Source: Desulforamulus hydrothermalis Lam5 = DSM 18033
GTDB taxonomy: Bacteria; Bacillota; Desulfotomaculia; Desulfotomaculales; Desulfotomaculaceae
DNA: 64,000 bases
Direction: 5' to 3'
Assembly (NCBI RefSeq): GCF_000315365.1
Contig: NZ_CAOS01000003.1
Span: forward strand, 1 to 64,000
The notes beneath the pieces were generated by a model. That model did not search any database. It worked only from the letters and a program-made list of their open reading frames with translations, and was not told the DNA's origin. Both the position numbers and the translations under genes were made by a program. This document shows positions 11,198 to 19,246 of the stretch, one piece after another. Every line of letters begins with the position of its first letter. Position 1 is the stretch's first letter.

Positions 11198-12331
11198 ATG
11201 CCAGTGCAGCGGAATATAGCTTCTCATATATTTAATTTAATACCAGGTGTACTGTTAATGTTTGCCATAGCGGTTTTTACCATGGGCGGTGAAGACCTTG
11301 GCATTCCCTGGCCGGGTTTAGAAACATATTTACGTACCAACCCTGTTACGCAAAAGTTTCTGATTGAAATATTGCGATTAAATTACATTCTTTTGTCTAT
11401 TATAATTGGTATGTTAATCGGTAATTTATTTAGATTACCGTCCTGGCTAATGGCAGGAGTTGCCACCTCCCGCTTGTTTATTAAATTAGGCGTCATCCTG
11501 CTGGGGTCATTATACAGTTTTGTGGAAGTGGCGCAATTAGGTGCCACGGCTATTTTTCTGGTATTAACTTTTGTGGTTATTACGTTGGTTTTTACTCTCT
11601 GGTTGGGAAAAAAAACCGGCATGGAGCCTTCCTCAGCTGCTGTGCTGGCAGCCGGTACGGCGGTATGCGGTGTATCAGCCATTGTTGCTACAGCACCGGC
11701 CGTACGAGCTAAAACCACAGATGTGGTTTTTTCTATAGCCACCGTGCTGTCCTTTGGAGTGGTTTGTATTTTTCTGTTTCCCATGATCGGCCATATATTA
11801 AACCTGAGTCCTCACCAGTTCGGGGTATGGTCTGGGACAGGTATTCTAAGCTCCGGGCAAGTATTAGCGGTTTGTCTCATTTATGATCCCGGCACAGCCA
11901 ACCATGCTTCTGTCAGCTTAAAAACCGGTGAGATTTATAATTTAACCAGGGTGTTGTTTCTGCCCTTTGTGGTGCTGGCACTGGCCGCCCTTAGCAGCCG
12001 TTCCGCCAGGCTGCCGGATGATCACATCAATATTCACACCGGTTTATGGAGCAAGTTTCCTGTCTTTGTCTTAGGATTTTTAATTATGGTTTTTCTTACT
12101 TCACTGGGCTTGCTGGGACAGAACTCACCCCCGTCGCCGGAGTTGATAACTATCCGTAAGCTGTATAACTGGTTTTTTGCCATTGGTTTGACCGGCCTGG
12201 GTATGCAAATTTCTTTTTCTGAACTGCGAAAAGCGGGGGGCAAACCTTTGGTGGTAGGGTCAGCGGCTGCTTTTTTAAAAGCCCTTTTGGCCCTGCTGGT
12301 AGTGTTGCTGTTTATGCCGGAAAATCCTTAA
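11198..12331 (+). CDS. YeiH-family putative sulfate/sulfite exporter (copy 1)
   Basis: 377 residues with about 10 membrane spans. The family (PF03601, YeiH/'putative sulfate exporter') signatures are LNYILLSIIIGMLIGNL near the N-terminus, RLFIKLGVILLGSLYSF, and AAGTAVCGVSAIVATAPAVRAK in the middle, plus the C-terminal FAIGLTGLGMQISFSELRKAGGKPL. Members are thought to export sulfite or related anions; the substrate here is inferred only from the family. ATG 11198 or GTG 11204 are both possible starts. The next gene, 16 bases on, codes a 47-residue single-span protein. A second member is at 17182-18255; the two flank a signalling operon. Confidence 0.88.
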   Translation: MPVQRNIASHIFNLIPGVLLMFAIAVFTMGGEDLGIPWPGLETYLRTNPVTQKFLIEILRLNYILLSIIIGMLIGNLFRLPSWLMAGVATSRLFIKLGVILLGSLYSFVEVAQLGATAIFLVLTFVVITLVFTLWLGKKTGMEPSSAAVLAAGTAVCGVSAIVATAPAVRAKTTDVVFSIATVLSFGVVCIFLFPMIGHILNLSPHQFGVWSGTGILSSGQVLAVCLIYDPGTANHASVSLKTGEIYNLTRVLFLPFVVLALAALSSRSARLPDDHINIHTGLWSKFPVFVLGFLIMVFLTSLGLLGQNSPPSPELITIRKLYNWFFAIGLTGLGMQISFSELRKAGGKPLVVGSAAAFLKALLALLVVLLFMPENP

Positions 12332-12347
12332 GTCAGAGGGTGAAATT

Positions 12348-12491
12348 ATGACAAAGAATAAAAAAGAAATACAGCCTGAAAAATATGAAGCAAAAATATA
12401 TACTCTTTTTGCCACGGAAAGAATGGAAGATTATGCGGCTCTTTCGCTGGCGCTGCTTATTGTAATTATTGTATTAATGGTTCACCAATAA
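12348..12491 (+). CDS. Small single-span membrane protein following YeiH copy 1
   Basis: 47 residues: a charged N-terminal half (MTKNKKEIQPEKYEAK), then RMEDYAALSLALLIVIIVLM, a membrane span near the C-terminus. ATG 12348 is preceded by AGAGGGTGAA, a good ribosome site, 16 bases after the transporter stop. The 41-residue protein behind the second YeiH gene has the same layout and shares D-Y-x3-S-L-x-L, which supports a real gene and an accessory role for the transporter. I know no named family for it. It ends in a bidirectional terminator. Confidence 0.72.
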   Translation: MTKNKKEIQPEKYEAKIYTLFATERMEDYAALSLALLIVIIVLMVHQ

Positions 12492-12530
12492 AAAACCTCC
12501 TTGCCATTCATAAGGCAAGGAGGTTTTTTT
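12491..12530. terminator. Bidirectional terminator between convergent operons
   Basis: CCTCCTTGCC / GGCAAGGAGG hairpin with an A run on the left and seven T on the right. It serves both the YeiH copy 1 transcript and the PAS-sensor transcript. Confidence 0.92.
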
Positions 12531-13992
12531 AGGAACCAAAGGGCTGGCTGTTGTTTAGCAGCATAATCAGCGTTCCCGCGTAGATGCCGTCATCATCATA
12601 GACCGGGGTTACTTCACAGTTAAGGGAGTCTGAAAGGCTCAGTCTGTGGGTTGTGCGAGAATCAATTTGGTTATAAATGAAGGCAGCCAAATTACGATCA
12701 ACTACCTCAATACTGGTACCGGGAACTAAATTATTAAGATAACATTTAGCAATTAAATTAGCTAAGGCAATCTCGTGGTTTTTATTAACAAAAACTATTC
12801 CCTGGGGCAGGGCATCAATTAATTTATCTAATATTTGATAATAAAAAGCGCTGTCCTGGTTGCTTGTTCTGATAACTGTTAATGAGCCTAAAATTTTATT
12901 GTTCTTAATAATGGGCGAATGAATGGCCTTAAGCAATTTATCCCTGAATTTTAAGGTTAAGGTGGTGGATCCTTCATTTTCCTTGGGCAATTCGTCTGTA
13001 TTACCGAACAGTTCTTTTAATTTAATATTTCTTAATGTGTTTTTTCGATCCGCAAATATGTGATGCGCTGCTTCGTTGGCAAATAAGATGCGTCCGGAGT
13101 TATTGGCAATAATCACACCTTCATTAATTTGGTTAAAAATAGCAAAATCAATATTTTCAAAATAAGTTTTAGCTGTATTAACTCCCCAGAATTCAACCAG
13201 TAATTCATAAAGGCAAACATAAAGGGCAAATACCAACAGCAAAACCGTTATGGCCCGGTATAATTCAAAGTTATTTGCCTCAAAAAAGAAGTATAGTTTC
13301 CAAAATCCGTCTCCTGCTTCCGACATGACAATTCGATACTTTTTATTGTCATAGTAAAAAGTATCTTGTTGAAGATCAAAAGAAGCAGCTTTAACCTTTT
13401 CAAAGGGCCAGAGCACAGGCCGATTGGCAGCGTCAAAAACAGCTACCCGATAGTTTTGATTAATAAATCCTTGAATTAATTCATTTTGCAACCGGTCAAG
13501 GCGGAAACTTACTGCTAAAGTGGCATTTTTGTTTTTTAAAGGATACAAGGTAGTAATTGCTTCGTTTTTGGACGATGAATCCAGGTGTATACCGGCATAG
13601 TATATATCGGAAATCTTTTGCGGCTCAAACTGCTTGGCCAGGGAGATAACAAATTGATCCGGCGTTAAATTAGAAGCAGAGCTTAATATTTTGCCATCTT
13701 TTAACATATAGATATTAACCAGGTCGGGTACAAAATAAATGTTATCATAAAAAAACCGTTGCATGTCCGGTTGATGATCCAGCATACCGGCAATGCTTAT
13801 GGTTACTGTCTTTAAATGTTCATGGAAATTGTTAGTTTTATTGACAGCCATTTGCACAATACCTGATTCATAGCGGTTGATAACGTTGTTAGTGTGGCGA
13901 AATTCCATAATTCCAAATAAAATAAAAATGCTTAAAAAAAAGATCGTTACAAAAGTAGGAAAGATACTTTTAAATAAGGGGGATTGTCTCAT
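12529..13992 (-). CDS. Membrane PAS sensor protein without a kinase domain
   Basis: 487 residues. One membrane span at about 11-30, an extracytoplasmic region of about 215 residues (Cache-like size, not identified), a second span at about 250-270 (AITVLLLVFALYVCLYELL), then two PAS-like modules (INEGVIIANNSGRILFANEAAHHIF and DALPQGIVFVNKNHEIALANLI). It ends soon after the second PAS: no His box, HATPase, GGDEF or methyl-accepting domain is present. Start ATG 13992 follows GGAGG. It is the last gene of an operon with the NarL-type regulator and histidine kinase, so it probably feeds signals to that kinase; this is inference. Confidence 0.8.
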   Translation of the reverse strand: MRQSPLFKSIFPTFVTIFFLSIFILFGIMEFRHTNNVINRYESGIVQMAVNKTNNFHEHLKTVTISIAGMLDHQPDMQRFFYDNIYFVPDLVNIYMLKDGKILSSASNLTPDQFVISLAKQFEPQKISDIYYAGIHLDSSSKNEAITTLYPLKNKNATLAVSFRLDRLQNELIQGFINQNYRVAVFDAANRPVLWPFEKVKAASFDLQQDTFYYDNKKYRIVMSEAGDGFWKLYFFFEANNFELYRAITVLLLVFALYVCLYELLVEFWGVNTAKTYFENIDFAIFNQINEGVIIANNSGRILFANEAAHHIFADRKNTLRNIKLKELFGNTDELPKENEGSTTLTLKFRDKLLKAIHSPIIKNNKILGSLTVIRTSNQDSAFYYQILDKLIDALPQGIVFVNKNHEIALANLIAKCYLNNLVPGTSIEVVDRNLAAFIYNQIDSRTTHRLSLSDSLNCEVTPVYDDDGIYAGTLIMLLNNSQPFGS

Positions 13993-14016
13993 AAAATCCT
14001 CCGGTTAAACGACTGT

Positions 14017-14631
14017 TTATTTAATGATGCCTCTTTTTACGGCTACAGTGAGTGCTTCTTCCACAGAGTGAACATTTAATTTAGTAAATATATCTTTTAA
14101 ACGTCTTCTAAAAGTAGAAAGGCTGATATAAAGTTCCGCGGCAATTTCCTTTTGATTTTTACCTCGAGCAAGCAATTGTAAAATTTGTATTTCATTTTCT
14201 GTTAAACCTGTGTCTGCCAGATTCAACAAACTGTCGGTATTTAAGCCGGGATAAAGATAAGAGCCTCCCTTGTGGGTCATAAAAACTGCAGACTTAATCT
14301 CATCAAAAAAGGCGTACTTGGGAACAAAACCCTTAACCCCACATTCCATGGCTTTTTTAATAAATATGGGATCGTCATAGGTGGTAAGGGCGACATGCTT
14401 AATTTGTGGATAAATTTGTTTAATGCGGCCGGCCAGCTCTAAACCGTCGCCGTCAGGTAAGCCAATATCAAGCAAAATTACATCAATATCACTTGTCAAT
14501 TTGGCCAGGGCTTCTTGACAAGAGCCGGCTTCCGCCACCACTTGCAAGTTCTCTTCCAACTCCAATAGTTTTTTCAGGCCCTCTCGAAAAACATTATGAT
14601 CTTCAATTAACATAAGTTTAATTTTCTTCAT
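14017..14631 (-). CDS. NarL/LuxR-family response regulator
   Basis: 204 residues. Receiver: LMLIEDHNVFREGL (acidic pocket), phosphoacceptor Asp in VILLDIGLPDGDGLEL, TTYDDP and FVPKYAFFDE with the conserved Lys. C-terminal LuxR helix-turn-helix: LTENEIQILQLLARGKNQ KEIA and LYISLSTFRRRLKDIF. Its start overlaps the end of the kinase gene by 14 bases, so the pair is translationally coupled. The operon lies between two YeiH exporter loci, its likely targets by position. Confidence 0.93.
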   Translation of the reverse strand: MKKIKLMLIEDHNVFREGLKKLLELEENLQVVAEAGSCQEALAKLTSDIDVILLDIGLPDGDGLELAGRIKQIYPQIKHVALTTYDDPIFIKKAMECGVKGFVPKYAFFDEIKSAVFMTHKGGSYLYPGLNTDSLLNLADTGLTENEIQILQLLARGKNQKEIAAELYISLSTFRRRLKDIFTKLNVHSVEEALTVAVKRGIIK

Positions 14632-16246
14632 CCGCTTGTCCTCCTGATTGTATCGGGACAGTTAAAGTAACGCAAAATCCGCCTTCGCCATAACCAAACG
14701 TAATATCGCCGCCAATCAGTGCAGCTCGCTCCTTCATTCCCCAGAGACCCTTGCCTGCCAAAAAATCGCCTTCAGAGCCGCCGTTGTCCATTATTTCTAT
14801 TTTTAGGGTTTCTTGTTGTTTGGTAAAGTTAATATCCGCTTCGGTGGCTTTGGCATGTTTAACAATATTACTTAGGGCTTCTTGAATGATTCGATAAATA
14901 ATAATCTCATCCTTTTTTTTCACGCGTAATGCCCGATCTTGATAAAAAATATATACTTTTATTTTATTGAGCTTTTCATAAGTTTGAATGTACGATTCAA
15001 GGGCGGAAATTAGACCTACTTTATCTATTAAATAGGGGTGAATGTCATTCATAATCCCACGCATTTCGATAGCTGCATTTTGGCAATGATTACGCAGATC
15101 ACTTAAATTTTGCATCAATTCATTATCATTTAGTTGTCCCGCTTTATGCAACCGTAAATTATAATCCAAGGAATGGATTATAGTAGACATATATCTGGCA
15201 ATCCAATCGTGAATTTCAATAGAAATTCTTTTTCTTTCTTTTTCCAGGGTATCCAGTAACAATGGCTTGTCCTTTTGTTCATCGGTCAACCTGGCAATCA
15301 ACAATATTCCCATTAATTTATTAAACAATATAATCGGCAGATAATCTACAGTTAGATCAATGCTACGCCCGTCATTGTTAAAGCTAATTTTTTTTCTAAG
15401 TATTGGTTTTTGTGTTAACAATACGTGCAGAAGTGGTTGAGTAATATTTTGCAATGACGGGAAAAGGGCAGAAAATTGTTCAATATGTTTATTGTTTACC
15501 ATTTCCGGCAATAAACCAAATAGGTCACGCGCAGATTTATTGATGTATTTTACTTTACCGGAGTTGTCAGCAAATATTAATGCGCTGTCTGTGTGCTCAG
15601 CCAATTCATTTGCATAAAAACATTTATTAATATATGGTTTTAAAAAAAGGTAAAATACATATGGTAAAACAAACATTGAGATAAGCCATACTATCAATAA
15701 CAGTATGGTTTTTTTGTTGACATTATCTAATACAACCTGAAATGAATGCTCTAAATTTTTATTATATATTTTTCTAACATCATATAATTGTGCATTAATT
15801 TGCTCGCAAAATTTATGGTTCCGTAAATAATATTCATAAATCTTCTCTTGTGTGTATTGATTGTTTTGAATCGCAGGTATTACATCGACAGAAACAAAAT
15901 TTATGTAGCTTTTGTATAGGTCTATAAATTCAAAGACATTTTTATTGTTAGATAAATTTCCGTTGGTTAAAAATTCTGCTTGTTTTTTAGATAACAAAGC
16001 ACTGTATTTATAATAATCATTCAGATACTCAGGTTTTTTTAATAAAATATAATTTTGCATATTATCTGCCATTGTATTAAAGGCATCATGAATTTCATTA
16101 ATATTAGTTATTTGCTGCTGGTAATCTTTTATTTTATCAATTTGTTGAAAAGAAGTTAATATTGCTTGAAAGAGTAAAACAGAACATGCGCCAACGGTTA
16201 AAAGCAATATTAGTATTATTTTAATAATTTTATTATTAAAAAACAT
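14618..16246 (-). CDS. Membrane sensor histidine kinase (HisKA_3 type)
   Basis: 542 residues. Membrane span at about 8-28, an extracytoplasmic helical region of about 150 residues, second span at about 182-203, a PAS module (SALIFADNSGKVKYINKSARDLF), then the HisKA_3 box ERKRISIEIHDWIARYM with the phospho-His, and an HATPase domain (IIYRIIQEALSNIVKHAKA, IMDNGG, GKGLWGMKERA). This is the partner type of NarL-like regulators. ATG 16246 has only a weak ribosome site (GGTGG). The gene is A+T richer than its neighbours. Its promoter region contains a perfect 24-bp inverted repeat. Confidence 0.92.
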   Translation of the reverse strand: MFFNNKIIKIILILLLTVGACSVLLFQAILTSFQQIDKIKDYQQQITNINEIHDAFNTMADNMQNYILLKKPEYLNDYYKYSALLSKKQAEFLTNGNLSNNKNVFEFIDLYKSYINFVSVDVIPAIQNNQYTQEKIYEYYLRNHKFCEQINAQLYDVRKIYNKNLEHSFQVVLDNVNKKTILLLIVWLISMFVLPYVFYLFLKPYINKCFYANELAEHTDSALIFADNSGKVKYINKSARDLFGLLPEMVNNKHIEQFSALFPSLQNITQPLLHVLLTQKPILRKKISFNNDGRSIDLTVDYLPIILFNKLMGILLIARLTDEQKDKPLLLDTLEKERKRISIEIHDWIARYMSTIIHSLDYNLRLHKAGQLNDNELMQNLSDLRNHCQNAAIEMRGIMNDIHPYLIDKVGLISALESYIQTYEKLNKIKVYIFYQDRALRVKKKDEIIIYRIIQEALSNIVKHAKATEADINFTKQQETLKIEIMDNGGSEGDFLAGKGLWGMKERAALIGGDITFGYGEGGFCVTLTVPIQSGGQADEEN

Positions 16247-16605
16247 ATAGCCACCGCTCTACAATAAACTTAATTTAACCATAAACAGTTAATATATTAT
16301 TTTGACCATTTACACTAAAATCCTTTCCAATATAATTATTTTTTAACAAAGCAAGCCTGGCCAATAATAGCATGTCGTACACAAGACAGTTGACAAGCAA
16401 TTTGCAAGACAAAATAACAATCATGCAAATGACACAAAAGTGTCATTTGCATGATTGTTATTTGCCATATACGGCTTGTTTCATTGACCTGAAACACTAA
16501 AAACATTAAGATTTCATTAAGTTAACCAACTGGTTGCCATTTGTTAATGATAAAAGTAACAAATGTAACATAAGGTTAAAGGGATGACTTTTAGGAGGGA
16601 ATTTT
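16247..16605. other. Divergent intergenic region, A+T rich
   Basis: Contains no gene. Besides the inverted repeat at 16412-16463 it holds an A+T-rich stretch on the kinase side and, on the other side, GTTAACCAACTGGTTG (about 16520-16535), a second imperfect inverted repeat. I see no clean -35/-10 pair. Confidence 0.4.
16412..16463. promoter_or_regulatory. Perfect 24-bp inverted repeat with 4-base loop in a divergent promoter region
   Basis: Arms 16412-16435 and 16440-16463 are exactly complementary around AAAA; the arm core is ATCATGCAAATGACAC. No T run follows on either strand and both neighbouring genes point away, so it is not an ordinary terminator. It could be an operator for a dimer of dimers, a cruciform or a 5'-UTR hairpin for either transcript. 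Confidence 0.6.
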
Positions 16606-17073
16606 GTGAATAAGATTCACATTAACATCTCCCGTAAAAAAAAAGAAAAACTGGTAAAGTGGTATGGATGGATATTTATTTTGTTAATCTGCATGACGCC
16701 ATTGGTAATAATTGTACTTCCTAAATTAATGTTAAATGTAAACAGAATTAATACATTGCTAAGAGAATCCATTATCCCTGAAAAAGAAAGTGTGAACGGT
16801 AACGTAAATAAAGTAACTTGGAACAAAACTTATGACGGTGATTTGGGTTGTATAGAAGGAGAAATTGAAATAATCAACCATGAAAATAAAATTATAAAAT
16901 GCATTTTTAAAAAGTATGTAGGGCCAAAGTATAATGAAACTTTTGAATTGAATGTAAATGATAATATTTACCTAACCGGTTTGTTCAAAGAAAATGTCTT
17001 CTTGATTAGAAATATGCAAAACAACGGCAATAATCAAGTGTATACTACGGAACCAATGGTTTCGGTGTACTAA
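16606..17073 (+). CDS. Membrane-anchored hypothetical protein
   Basis: 155 residues, not recognised. A basic N-terminus (SRKKKEKLVKWYG) precedes one membrane span (WIFILLICMTPLVIIVLPKL), so the following about 115 residues probably lie outside. The outer part is rich in Asn, Lys and beta-forming residues and could be a small beta-barrel, which is a guess. GTG start at 16606 follows GGAGGG. It precedes the second YeiH gene by 109 bases and may share its transcript. A+T-rich composition matches the neighbouring kinase gene. Confidence 0.6.
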   Translation: MNKIHINISRKKKEKLVKWYGWIFILLICMTPLVIIVLPKLMLNVNRINTLLRESIIPEKESVNGNVNKVTWNKTYDGDLGCIEGEIEIINHENKIIKCIFKKYVGPKYNETFELNVNDNIYLTGLFKENVFLIRNMQNNGNNQVYTTEPMVSVY

Positions 17074-17181
17074 ATATAAAAACTTGAAGAAGGGGGGAGC
17101 TGCCACCGTAGGTGCGGTTAAATTTCCATTTTAAACAGGTAGCTTATTATTAACTTACTAATAGTTTGGAGGTGTATTTAC

Positions 17182-18255
17182 TTGGCACAAACACAAATCA
17201 GCCAAGCACAAAGTGAAAGCTTAAGTTCACAAATTGCTAAAGCAATACCGGGTCTTATTCTGGTTGTTCTGGTAGCCATTGCTGCCAGCTGGGCAGAAGG
17301 ATTTATTAAAACAAACTTTAAAAAGATTTATGAAATTGCCCACCTGAACTACGTTTTGTTGGCAATTATTTTTGGTATGTTGATTCGCAACACTGTAGGT
17401 GTTCCTTCGGTGTTAGAGCCGGGTCTTAAATATTCCACTATTTTAACCAAAACAGGTATTGTGGTCATGGGTACCAAATATACTTTGGCTTCGCTGGTTA
17501 AAGTAGGTACCACCAGTATGATTTTTATTGCTGTTACCTTGTTTGGTACTGTTGCTTTGATGTTCTGGCTGCGCAAACGTTATGAAATGACCGATTCCCT
17601 GGCGGGATGCTTGGCGGCCGGTTTCTCCATCTGCGGCGTTTCGGCTACTGTGGCTACCGGCCCGGCTGTTAAAGCCAAAGGGCAGGAAATGTGCTACAGC
17701 ATTGCAACCATTCTGATTTTTGGTCTCTTAGCACTGTTTACTTTCCCGGCTTTAGGTCACCTGTTCGGTTTGAATGAACATCAGTTTGGTGCCTGGGTCG
17801 GTGTCGGTATTGTTAACTCAGCGCAAGTTCTGGCAGCCGGTATGGCCTATGGTCAGGACGCCGGACTTATAGCCGGTATTTATAATATGGGTCGTGTAGT
17901 GCTGTTGCCCTTTGTTGTCTTGTATGTGGTAATGCTGGTACTGAAAAACGACAGCAAAGCTGCCGGTGAAATTAATAAAACTCAGTTTGTTGTGGACAAG
18001 TTCCCGGTCTTTATTATTGCTTTCTTAATTGCTGTGCTGGCCAATACAGCCGGTTTATTCAGCAAAGAGGAAGTGAAAATGGCCAACACTTTTATGACCT
18101 GGGCATTCACTTTAGGTTTTGCCAGCATTGGCTTAACCACCAAATTCTCCGATATGAAAGCTGCCGGTAAAGACGGTATCGTGCTGGGCTTCATTGTAGG
18201 ATTTATTAAGGCAGCCTTTGCCCTGGTGGTTGTAAAATTTGTGCTTCCTTTATAA
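17182..18255 (+). CDS. YeiH-family putative sulfate/sulfite exporter (copy 2)
   Basis: 357 residues, about 10 membrane spans. Same family signatures as copy 1: LNYVLLAIIFGMLIRNTVG, LTKTGIVVMGTKYTL, AAGFSICGVSATVATGPAVKAKG, and the C-terminal FASIGLTTKFSDMKAAGKDG. The two copies are clearly diverged paralogs, not a recent duplication. The start TTG 17182 follows GGAGGTG. Directly downstream (36 bases) is a 41-residue single-span protein and then a universal stress protein. Substrate is only inferred from the family. Confidence 0.88.
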   Translation: MAQTQISQAQSESLSSQIAKAIPGLILVVLVAIAASWAEGFIKTNFKKIYEIAHLNYVLLAIIFGMLIRNTVGVPSVLEPGLKYSTILTKTGIVVMGTKYTLASLVKVGTTSMIFIAVTLFGTVALMFWLRKRYEMTDSLAGCLAAGFSICGVSATVATGPAVKAKGQEMCYSIATILIFGLLALFTFPALGHLFGLNEHQFGAWVGVGIVNSAQVLAAGMAYGQDAGLIAGIYNMGRVVLLPFVVLYVVMLVLKNDSKAAGEINKTQFVVDKFPVFIIAFLIAVLANTAGLFSKEEVKMANTFMTWAFTLGFASIGLTTKFSDMKAAGKDGIVLGFIVGFIKAAFALVVVKFVLPL

Positions 18256-18290
18256 TAGTAAGTTAATTAATAAACAGGAGGTGCCTGTTG

Positions 18291-18416
18291 ATGTCTGATA
18301 AAACCAGTTGCGGGGTAGATGAACAAAGGGCTGCTGACCTGAAGGTCAGAAGACAAGACTATATGGTTATCTCTTTAGGATTATTCTTGCTGGTACTGGC
18401 CAAAGTTATGGCTTAA
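18291..18416 (+). CDS. Small single-span membrane protein following YeiH copy 2
   Basis: 41 residues: MSDKTSCGVDEQRAADLKV, then RRQDYMVISLGLFLLVLAK, a span that ends at the C-terminus. ATG 18291 lies 9 bases after an excellent ribosome site (AGGAGGTG). It mirrors the 47-residue protein after YeiH copy 1: charged N-terminal half, D-Y-x3-S-L-x-L at the membrane entry, no C-terminal domain. No known family recognised; I infer a transporter partner. Confidence 0.72.
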   Translation: MSDKTSCGVDEQRAADLKVRRQDYMVISLGLFLLVLAKVMA

Positions 18417-18434
18417 TCTAATCATGCTTTTATC

Positions 18435-18475
18435 TATGGCAGGGTGGGGACTGAGCAAGTCCTTGCCCTGCCATA
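18435..18475 (+). terminator. Intercistronic hairpin (weak terminator or processing site)
   Basis: TATGGCAGGG / CCCTGCCATA outer stem with an inner GGACT / AGTCC, between the small protein gene and the usp gene. There is no T run, so it may attenuate or protect rather than stop transcription. Confidence 0.5.
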
Positions 18476-18495
18476 CTATATCAGGGAGTGGGGTT

Positions 18496-18939
18496 ATGTT
18501 TAATAATATACTGGTGGCAGTCCACGGTGATGAAAAAGAAGCCTTTTGGGCCAAAATAGAGGCTTTAATTATGTTAACTAAACCGGAGGTTACAGTACTG
18601 CATGTATCCGAGACCGGTTTAACGCATTACGGTTATGTGGACCAACTGGCAAGCGGTATCGCAAAAGAACAGTTTATCGAATACATTTATCAGATGGCTG
18701 AAGAAAAACAACAGGTAATTTATCAGAAGATTAAGGAGCTTTCGCAACGGGCAGGTATTAATTTTATGTGGCAAGTACGCCGGGGATCCCCTGCGAAGGA
18801 AATAAGTTCAGAATTAAGCAAGGGAAGTTATGACTTATTAATATTAGGCACTAAGCCAAAGTCACTGGGCAATACTTCCAGTAAAGTAAAAGAAAATTTG
18901 CTAAAACACAATTGCGTTTCGCTGTTAATTTTACAATAA
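18496..18939 (+). CDS. Universal stress protein (UspA family)
   Basis: 147 residues. Starts FNNILVAVHGDEKEAFWA and ends with the family patterns GSYDLLILGTKP and HNCVSLLIL. The usual ATP-binding G-x2-G-x9-G-S/T is degenerate (LGTKPKSLGNTSSKVKEN), so nucleotide binding is doubtful. I start at ATG 18496 (ribosome site AGGGAG), not further upstream, because the upstream frame runs through a hairpin. As last gene of the YeiH copy 2 group it may respond to the same stress. Confidence 0.8.
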   Translation: MFNNILVAVHGDEKEAFWAKIEALIMLTKPEVTVLHVSETGLTHYGYVDQLASGIAKEQFIEYIYQMAEEKQQVIYQKIKELSQRAGINFMWQVRRGSPAKEISSELSKGSYDLLILGTKPKSLGNTSSKVKENLLKHNCVSLLILQ

Positions 18940-19045: not shown

Positions 19046-19246
19046 ATGAAGAATTCTAACAGCCCCACAGGAAAAGAATTGTTAAATTATTGGGCAAAGA
19101 TTTTTCCCTGTCTTTTGCTTTCGGTATTATTTTTCTGTATTGTTCGTACTTACAGTTTTGAACATCCGCTGGTTTTAGTGCCGCTTGTGACAAGTATATT
19201 TGTGTTGTACTATTTTATTGTTCCCATAGCAAATGATGAAGAATAA
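19046..19246 (+). CDS. Small hypothetical membrane protein, two spans
   Basis: 66 residues, not recognised. After a short polar start there are two hydrophobic spans (IFPCLLLSVLFFCIVRTY and LVLVPLVTSIFVLYYFIV) and an acidic tail (ANDEE). ATG 19046 follows GAGGGTGAGGGC, a reasonable ribosome site. It stands alone, convergent with the DUF342 gene. Confidence 0.55.
   Translation: MKNSNSPTGKELLNYWAKIFPCLLLSVLFFCIVRTYSFEHPLVLVPLVTSIFVLYYFIVPIANDEE

Follow-up and report, generated by a model that had tools for sequence, protein, structure and literature searches.

What are the two tiny membrane proteins whose genes follow two YeiH-type transporter genes in Desulforamulus hydrothermalis Lam5? Both pairs lie within the first 64,000 nucleotides (nt) of contig NZ_CAOS01000003.1 (the stretch of DNA analysed here, hereafter the window): (i) Y1 (11198..12331, + strand), a short-form PF03601 (YeiH/PSE) transporter of 377 amino acids (aa), is followed by S1 (12348..12491, +), a 47-aa single-span protein with an ATG start; and (ii) Y2 (17182..18255, +), a short-form PF03601 transporter of 357 aa with a TTG start, is followed by S2 (18288..18416, +), a single-span protein of 41-42 aa. 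The original prediction, made from the sequence alone, took the small proteins for conserved accessory subunits, and this is still their best reading: the small genes are class-specific, adjacent or nearly so to their transporter genes, apparently under purifying selection and outside the families of Pfam and NCBIfam. Beyond that prediction, it was found that the third YeiH gene of the genome is also partnered, that the small proteins resemble a helix of the long proteins of the family, and that classic YeiH has no such partner. In our opinion, Y1 and Y2 are probably two-subunit YeiH/PSE exporters whose small subunit corresponds to a scaffold helix that has been detached; S1 and S2 are proposed as these subunits on the basis of their pairing, their substitution ratios and their profile matches.

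As had been predicted, both transporter genes are trailed by a small gene with its own ribosome-binding site. The start codon of S1 is 16 nt past the Y1 stop, behind the sequence AGAGGG (12335..12340, +). For S2, there are two options, namely an ATG at 18291 (41 aa, 35 nt past the Y2 stop) or a TTG at 18288 (42 aa, 32 nt), behind AGGAGGTG (18276..18283, +). Both ribosome-binding sites come from a reading of the sequence. The D-Y-x3-S-L-x-L motif reported for the two proteins is indeed present in both (DYAALSLAL in S1, DYMVISLGL in S2), but the stretch that other species conserve extends beyond this motif and differs from it in part: the S1 family (23 rows, partial frames and near copies being excluded) has the consensus [TS]ERxEDYxALSLAxxIxIxVL, in which only E27 and D28 are invariant, and the S2 family has KVRKQDYxVIxLGxxLLxLAKIxA, with an invariant K38 inside the span. 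The source genome (2.69 Mb) has three PF03601 genes, and the third one, Y3, is likewise trailed by an open reading frame (ORF) for a one-span protein, S3 (58 aa; locus L003, C3:283381-283554, - strand), in which EWFELQPIEKKLI precedes the span. The S3 family extends over several families of the phylum. Among unsaturated pairs, the median ratios of nonsynonymous to synonymous substitution rates (dN/dS) are 0.35 for S1 (65/253 pairs), 0.22 for S2 (28/78) and 0.32 for S3 (33/153), and by this measure the small genes are under purifying selection.

The pairing was followed in 60 related genomes plus one metagenome-assembled genome, a sample confined to one phylum; 43 of the 60 genomes contain PF03601 genes. 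A total of 101 PF03601 proteins were classified, the classes Y1, Y2, Y3 and Y3up being assigned by similarity score and the class UPs by locus. The check suggested along with the original prediction, that is, a search for similar frames in related species, found a class-specific small gene with 28/28 Y1-type, 14/14 Y2-type and 22/22 Y3-type genes, and the attempted refutation failed. In 27 of the 28 Y1 cases the small gene is directly downstream; in the remaining one (G046) the pair is split by an IS110-like insertion, where a transposase-like ORF, read as IS110-type, separates Y1 from an S1 located on a separate contig, whose end is the same over 535 nt as the DNA that begins 12 nt past the Y1 stop. 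An upstream small gene accompanies 2/2 UPs genes and 4/5 Y3up genes according to a hidden Markov model (HMM), the fifth having been identified by eye. None of the 19 longNT proteins of these relatives has any of these class-specific small genes. Classic YeiH proteins have no small partner, either in the relatives (0/9; an A3 match near L008 belongs to the adjoining Y3-S3 pair) or in the wider phylum sample (0/31 rows, with L173 contributing two rows from one broken gene); two of 11 rows labelled classic (L057, L061) group in the long clade, their frame being without the N-terminal part. As a control, 344 genes outside PF03601, each coding for 150 aa or more, were drawn from the fetched loci and the window: only one of them has a one-span ORF of 28-80 aa, preceded by a Shine-Dalgarno sequence, at most 80 nt downstream, and none of 45 membrane genes does. 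The sole match is a conserved small protein encoded after a universal-stress-protein (Usp) gene. The small genes are real and conserved, and their pairing is class-specific.

Searches starting from the small proteins lead back to the same neighbours. In 398 genomes of the phylum, the S1 profile was found in 10, always beside Y1 (10/10), and the S3 profile in 28, with 24 strong matches (23 following a Y3-type gene and one at a contig edge) and four weak ones (three unrelated and one of the upstream type). In the 60 relatives, 28 matches were strong among the 45 listed for S1, and 16 among the 41 listed for S2; these 16 comprise 13 with an intact Y2, one with a broken Y2, one after an edge-cut Y2 and one orphan. 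No Pfam or NCBIfam family was matched above its cut-off by S1, S2, S3, the upstream types or a further type with a GAGDIWW motif, and S1 and S2 had no Pfam match at E <= 1. The matches below cut-off were weak: PcxA (0.023) and LnuG (0.086) for S1, Scm1 (0.0024) and CDF (0.077) for the L030 protein and, for the upstream proteins, daptide (L069, 9e-4) and C-JID (L196, 0.11). The gamma subunit of oxaloacetate decarboxylase (OAD) or another known small family was rejected as a candidate identity, there being no match above cut-off in either database.

The type just mentioned is another one-span small protein, with a GAGDIWWVD-like tail, encoded after some long PF03601 genes (L162, L169, L171); longer forms that resemble it occur in L061, L062, L063 and L065. 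The long PF03601 gene of L062 is preceded by a 43-aa ORF (378-510) that resembles the Y2 N-terminus (KALPGLILVAALGGFAFWADGY) and is perhaps a gene remnant.

Regarding the transporters, the earlier label of YeiH exporter is right at the level of Pfam, but both proteins stay under the cut-off of the YeiH subfamily proper. Against PF03601 (cut-off 24.5 bits), Y1 scores 195.7 bits (E 1.1e-57) and Y2 214.9 bits (E 1.6e-63); against TIGR00698 of NCBIfam (cut-off 232.6 bits), Y1 scores 115.8 and Y2 139.6. Among named organisms, the nearest relative found is Desulforamulus putei (Y2 identity 94%), and the model of its Y1 orthologue has the CPA/AT elevator fold, matching NapA (Z 15.5, root-mean-square deviation (rmsd) 4.5, 270 aligned) and CitS (Z 14.8, rmsd 5.3, 279 aligned). 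The model of a long protein (L044) also matches elevator transporters, with listed chains that cover residues from about 88 onward only. Foldseek and VIA-align recovered the elevator fold and did not place the helix, and the Y2 sequence had no match among solved structures. According to the available text of PMC8396727, PF03601 has 9-span and 11-span forms which differ by two N-terminal helices. In Salmonella, YeiH is described, in the accessible part of the report, as the main sulfite-resistance factor on genetic evidence (PMC12880088). The substrate exported by Y1 and Y2 may be an oxyanion, for instance sulfite or sulfate.

It is the first helix of the long 11-span proteins, [KR]xEDWWAVWLGL, that S1 and S2 resemble. 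The motif [KRT]xEDWWAVWLG, or a close variant, stands ahead of the first span in 27/27 Y3 and Y3up proteins, and an N-terminal EDWW helix is found in 0/44 of the short proteins with small partners (S1, S2 and UPs classes); its presence in 19/19 longNT proteins is circular, because the N-terminal motif served to define that class. In the L044 model this helix, here EDYW, occupies residues 17-37 at a predicted local distance difference test (pLDDT) score of about 95. When compared by hhalign with a profile of the fused helix (NT), S1 scores 25.3 (shuffle maxima 15.8 and 16.4) and S2 22.6 (maxima 14.2 and 17.2), against shuffle means of 7.5-9.8; for each protein, the score was reached by 0/200 full and 0/200 segment shuffles. 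Moreover, of the 17 sub-threshold S1 matches in the 60 relatives, four are linked to PF03601, namely one upstream small protein (EDIWAL) and three long-protein N-termini; the upstream protein and long N-termini are among the best of the matches below threshold, although long N-termini are matched weakly, at E 0.01-0.8. From these comparisons, which involve some 20 residues, the small subunit is most likely homologous to the first N-terminal scaffold helix of the long proteins.

The same helix can be traced as a gene of its own. In the 398 genomes, a profile of the fused helix alone recovered stand-alone frames: four of them (in three genomes; 31-87 aa, with KLHEDWWAVILGL-like helices) are directly upstream of short PF03601 genes, and others are long genes cut by contig edges. 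A fifth stand-alone frame (L198) has no YeiH nearby and was counted as chance. In a tree of 73 rows, with a limited number per class (and with L164, labelled phyclassic, being a long form missed by the motif filter), the four short transporters with an upstream helix form one clade nested in the long clade (support 100), which shows one helix in both states, fused to some proteins and separate from others. Finally, in related loci the slot of Y2-S2 has other occupants: a long protein with the fused helix in five of them (L036, L043, L051, L052 and L053), and in L056 a short protein whose small gene is upstream; at this one conserved locus, thus, the forms replace each other.

According to the proposed explanation, Y1 and Y2 would each require their own single-span subunit, encoded directly downstream. 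Once translated, the small protein would insert into the membrane as a single helix, the charged N-terminal half probably facing the cytoplasm, bind the transporter by packing on its scaffold (dimerisation) half and, by stabilising the dimer, steady the scaffold during the elevator-like movement of the core domain which would export the oxyanion. A more general version, for which we see about an even chance, states that non-classic YeiH/PSE exporters are commonly two-subunit systems in which the scaffold helix is movable, being supplied as (i) an N-terminal fusion; (ii) an upstream gene (SU, UPs); or (iii) a downstream gene (S1, S2), with S3, its upstream relative and the GAGDIWW type as additional partners.

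Several observations weigh against a detached helix. The similarity between S1 and S2 was equalled by 1/200 segment shuffles (0/200 full), and the link between S1 and S3 (A1-A3) is weak, its score being reached by 3/200 shuffles. In the source genome, a search with the NT profile at E <= 10 retrieves neither S1 nor S2; the homology is therefore at the edge of detection and the likeness could be convergent. In an AlphaFold read-through model of D. putei Y1-S1, the transporter is well folded (mean pLDDT 84, predicted template modelling score 0.83) and the S1 helix has a pLDDT of 60-69 with no confident docking, an outcome compatible with docking as well as with its absence; in the alignment used, 7/40 rows carry S1. 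Alignment A6 has 40 rows where A5 has 42, after removal of a lone S1 from the window, which was misaligned, and of the Y2 row of L038. Furthermore, Y3 has the fused EDWW helix and yet also a small partner, and some long forms carry the GAGDIWW-type partner, so that helix replacement does not account for every small partner. Of the two additional N-terminal helices that distinguish the long forms, the small proteins supply one. An S2-like orphan frame (L133:3088-3259, +) has no YeiH gene within 3 kb. Lastly, classic YeiH is functional in Salmonella with neither helix nor small partner, as far as the available text of the study goes (PMC12880088).

Part of this evidence would suit a reading in which the small proteins are true partners of the transporters, but evolved independently as single-span accessories, comparable to AcrZ, KdpF or CydX, that tune activity or stability, their acidic-aromatic start being a common membrane-interface motif with no kinship to the N-terminal helix. 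Pairing and conservation require no homology, the S1-S3 similarity is weak, Y3 bears both fused helix and S3, and the NT profile misses S1 and S2 genome-wide. Nevertheless, S1 and S2 resemble the fused helix with residue order preserved, at scores above all 400 shuffles for each, bare EDWWAV genes adjoin short PF03601 genes within the long clade, and long forms interchange with short-plus-small forms at one locus, so independent accessories seem to us unlikely. Even less likely, in our view, is that the small proteins are signalling adaptors which link the transporters, as co-sensors, to the two-component system between the pairs. In many related loci, S1 and S2 do lie on either side of a PAS, response-regulator and histidine-kinase set which is conserved, but S3 follows a transporter gene, Y3, which in the source genome sits elsewhere among other genes, and stand-alone EDW helices and the upstream classes occur in other loci. 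As for non-functional, leader-like or chance frames, the possibility is close to negligible: the dN/dS values are well below 1, the frames have their own ribosome sites, adjacency survives changes of gene order, and the base rate is 1/344. Chance frames were rejected on that control together with dN/dS.

The surroundings of the pairs are as follows. Fumarase, phosphoenolpyruvate carboxykinase, succinate dehydrogenase and malate dehydrogenase genes precede Y1-S1, which is followed by an opposite-strand signalling set, a 155-aa protein, Y2-S2 and a Usp-like gene. Directly 3' of S1, a manual reading found a probable intrinsic terminator (12496..12530, +; 10-bp stem, 8-nt loop and T run), and therefore S1 would end the Y1 transcription unit; this candidate extends into the stop of the gene on the other strand and is absent from the hairpin list of the pattern scan. 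The signalling set, whose position is kept in related loci, consists of a PAS-domain membrane protein (12529..13992, -; PAS matches), a NarL-type response regulator (14017..14631, -; Response_reg and GerE) and a histidine kinase (14618..16246, -; PAS, HisKA_3 and HATPase). The gap from the histidine-kinase gene to that of the 155-aa protein contains a 20-bp inverted repeat with a loop of 4 (16414-16461), a candidate regulatory site or two-way terminator. The 155-aa protein (16606-17073, +) has one N-terminal span and no match in Pfam or NCBIfam; related loci conserve it, placed close to Y2 or behind Usp. After S2 comes the conserved Usp-like gene (18424..18939, +; Usp match and related loci), followed by a 66-aa hydrophobic ORF (19046-19246, +) which is kept beside Usp in several related loci, reaches the cut-off of no Pfam family and is a relative of the sole control match. 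In other searches, a plasmid search gave 85 records, all of them below 60% identity among the 40 listed, and a contig scan of named genomes beyond close kin gave two loci.

YeiH-type proteins occur widely and have been little characterised. If the short non-classic members need a partner, their expression alone fails, a possible practical cause of their remaining uncharacterised. If the movable-helix reading is true, a membrane helix has been exchanged between cis and trans several times within one transporter family, and there is an unrecognised superfamily of subunits of 30-60 residues. The natural series of fused, upstream and downstream forms suits experiments on an extra scaffold helix in an elevator transporter; likewise, small unannotated genes may be predictable from a helix that is missing in a domain.

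Among known systems, the nearest is the 11-span PSE_2 (PF03601) protein itself, which has the same fold and whose N-terminal EDWWAV helix resembles S1, S2 and the bare upstream helices; unlike PSE_2, Y1 and Y2 have this helix as a separate downstream gene, and the second extra helix of PSE_2 is without counterpart. Small partner genes are not mentioned in the available text of the PSE study (PMC8396727). No description of a small YeiH partner was found in the literature searched. OadG, the gamma subunit of OAD, also recruits a soluble alpha subunit and belongs to its own Pfam family (which we take to be PF04277), whereas neither S1 nor S2 has a Pfam match. This small subunit, OadG, binds the CPA/AT-fold beta subunit, OadB, and the likeness to our pairs lies in a membrane subunit of that fold with a single-span partner that touches scaffold and core helices, as far as the accessible text describes it (PMC7274780). 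The YeiH of Salmonella and Escherichia coli belongs to PF03601 like Y1 and Y2, but has the 9 spans of the classic form; no small partner accompanies the classic forms of the genomes examined, and Y1 and Y2 are under the TIGR00698 cut-off. KdpF, CydX and AcrZ are tiny hydrophobic one-span proteins encoded beside, or working with, large membrane complexes. No sequence kinship between these and S1 or S2 was found; S1 and S2 resemble instead a helix of the transporter family's own.

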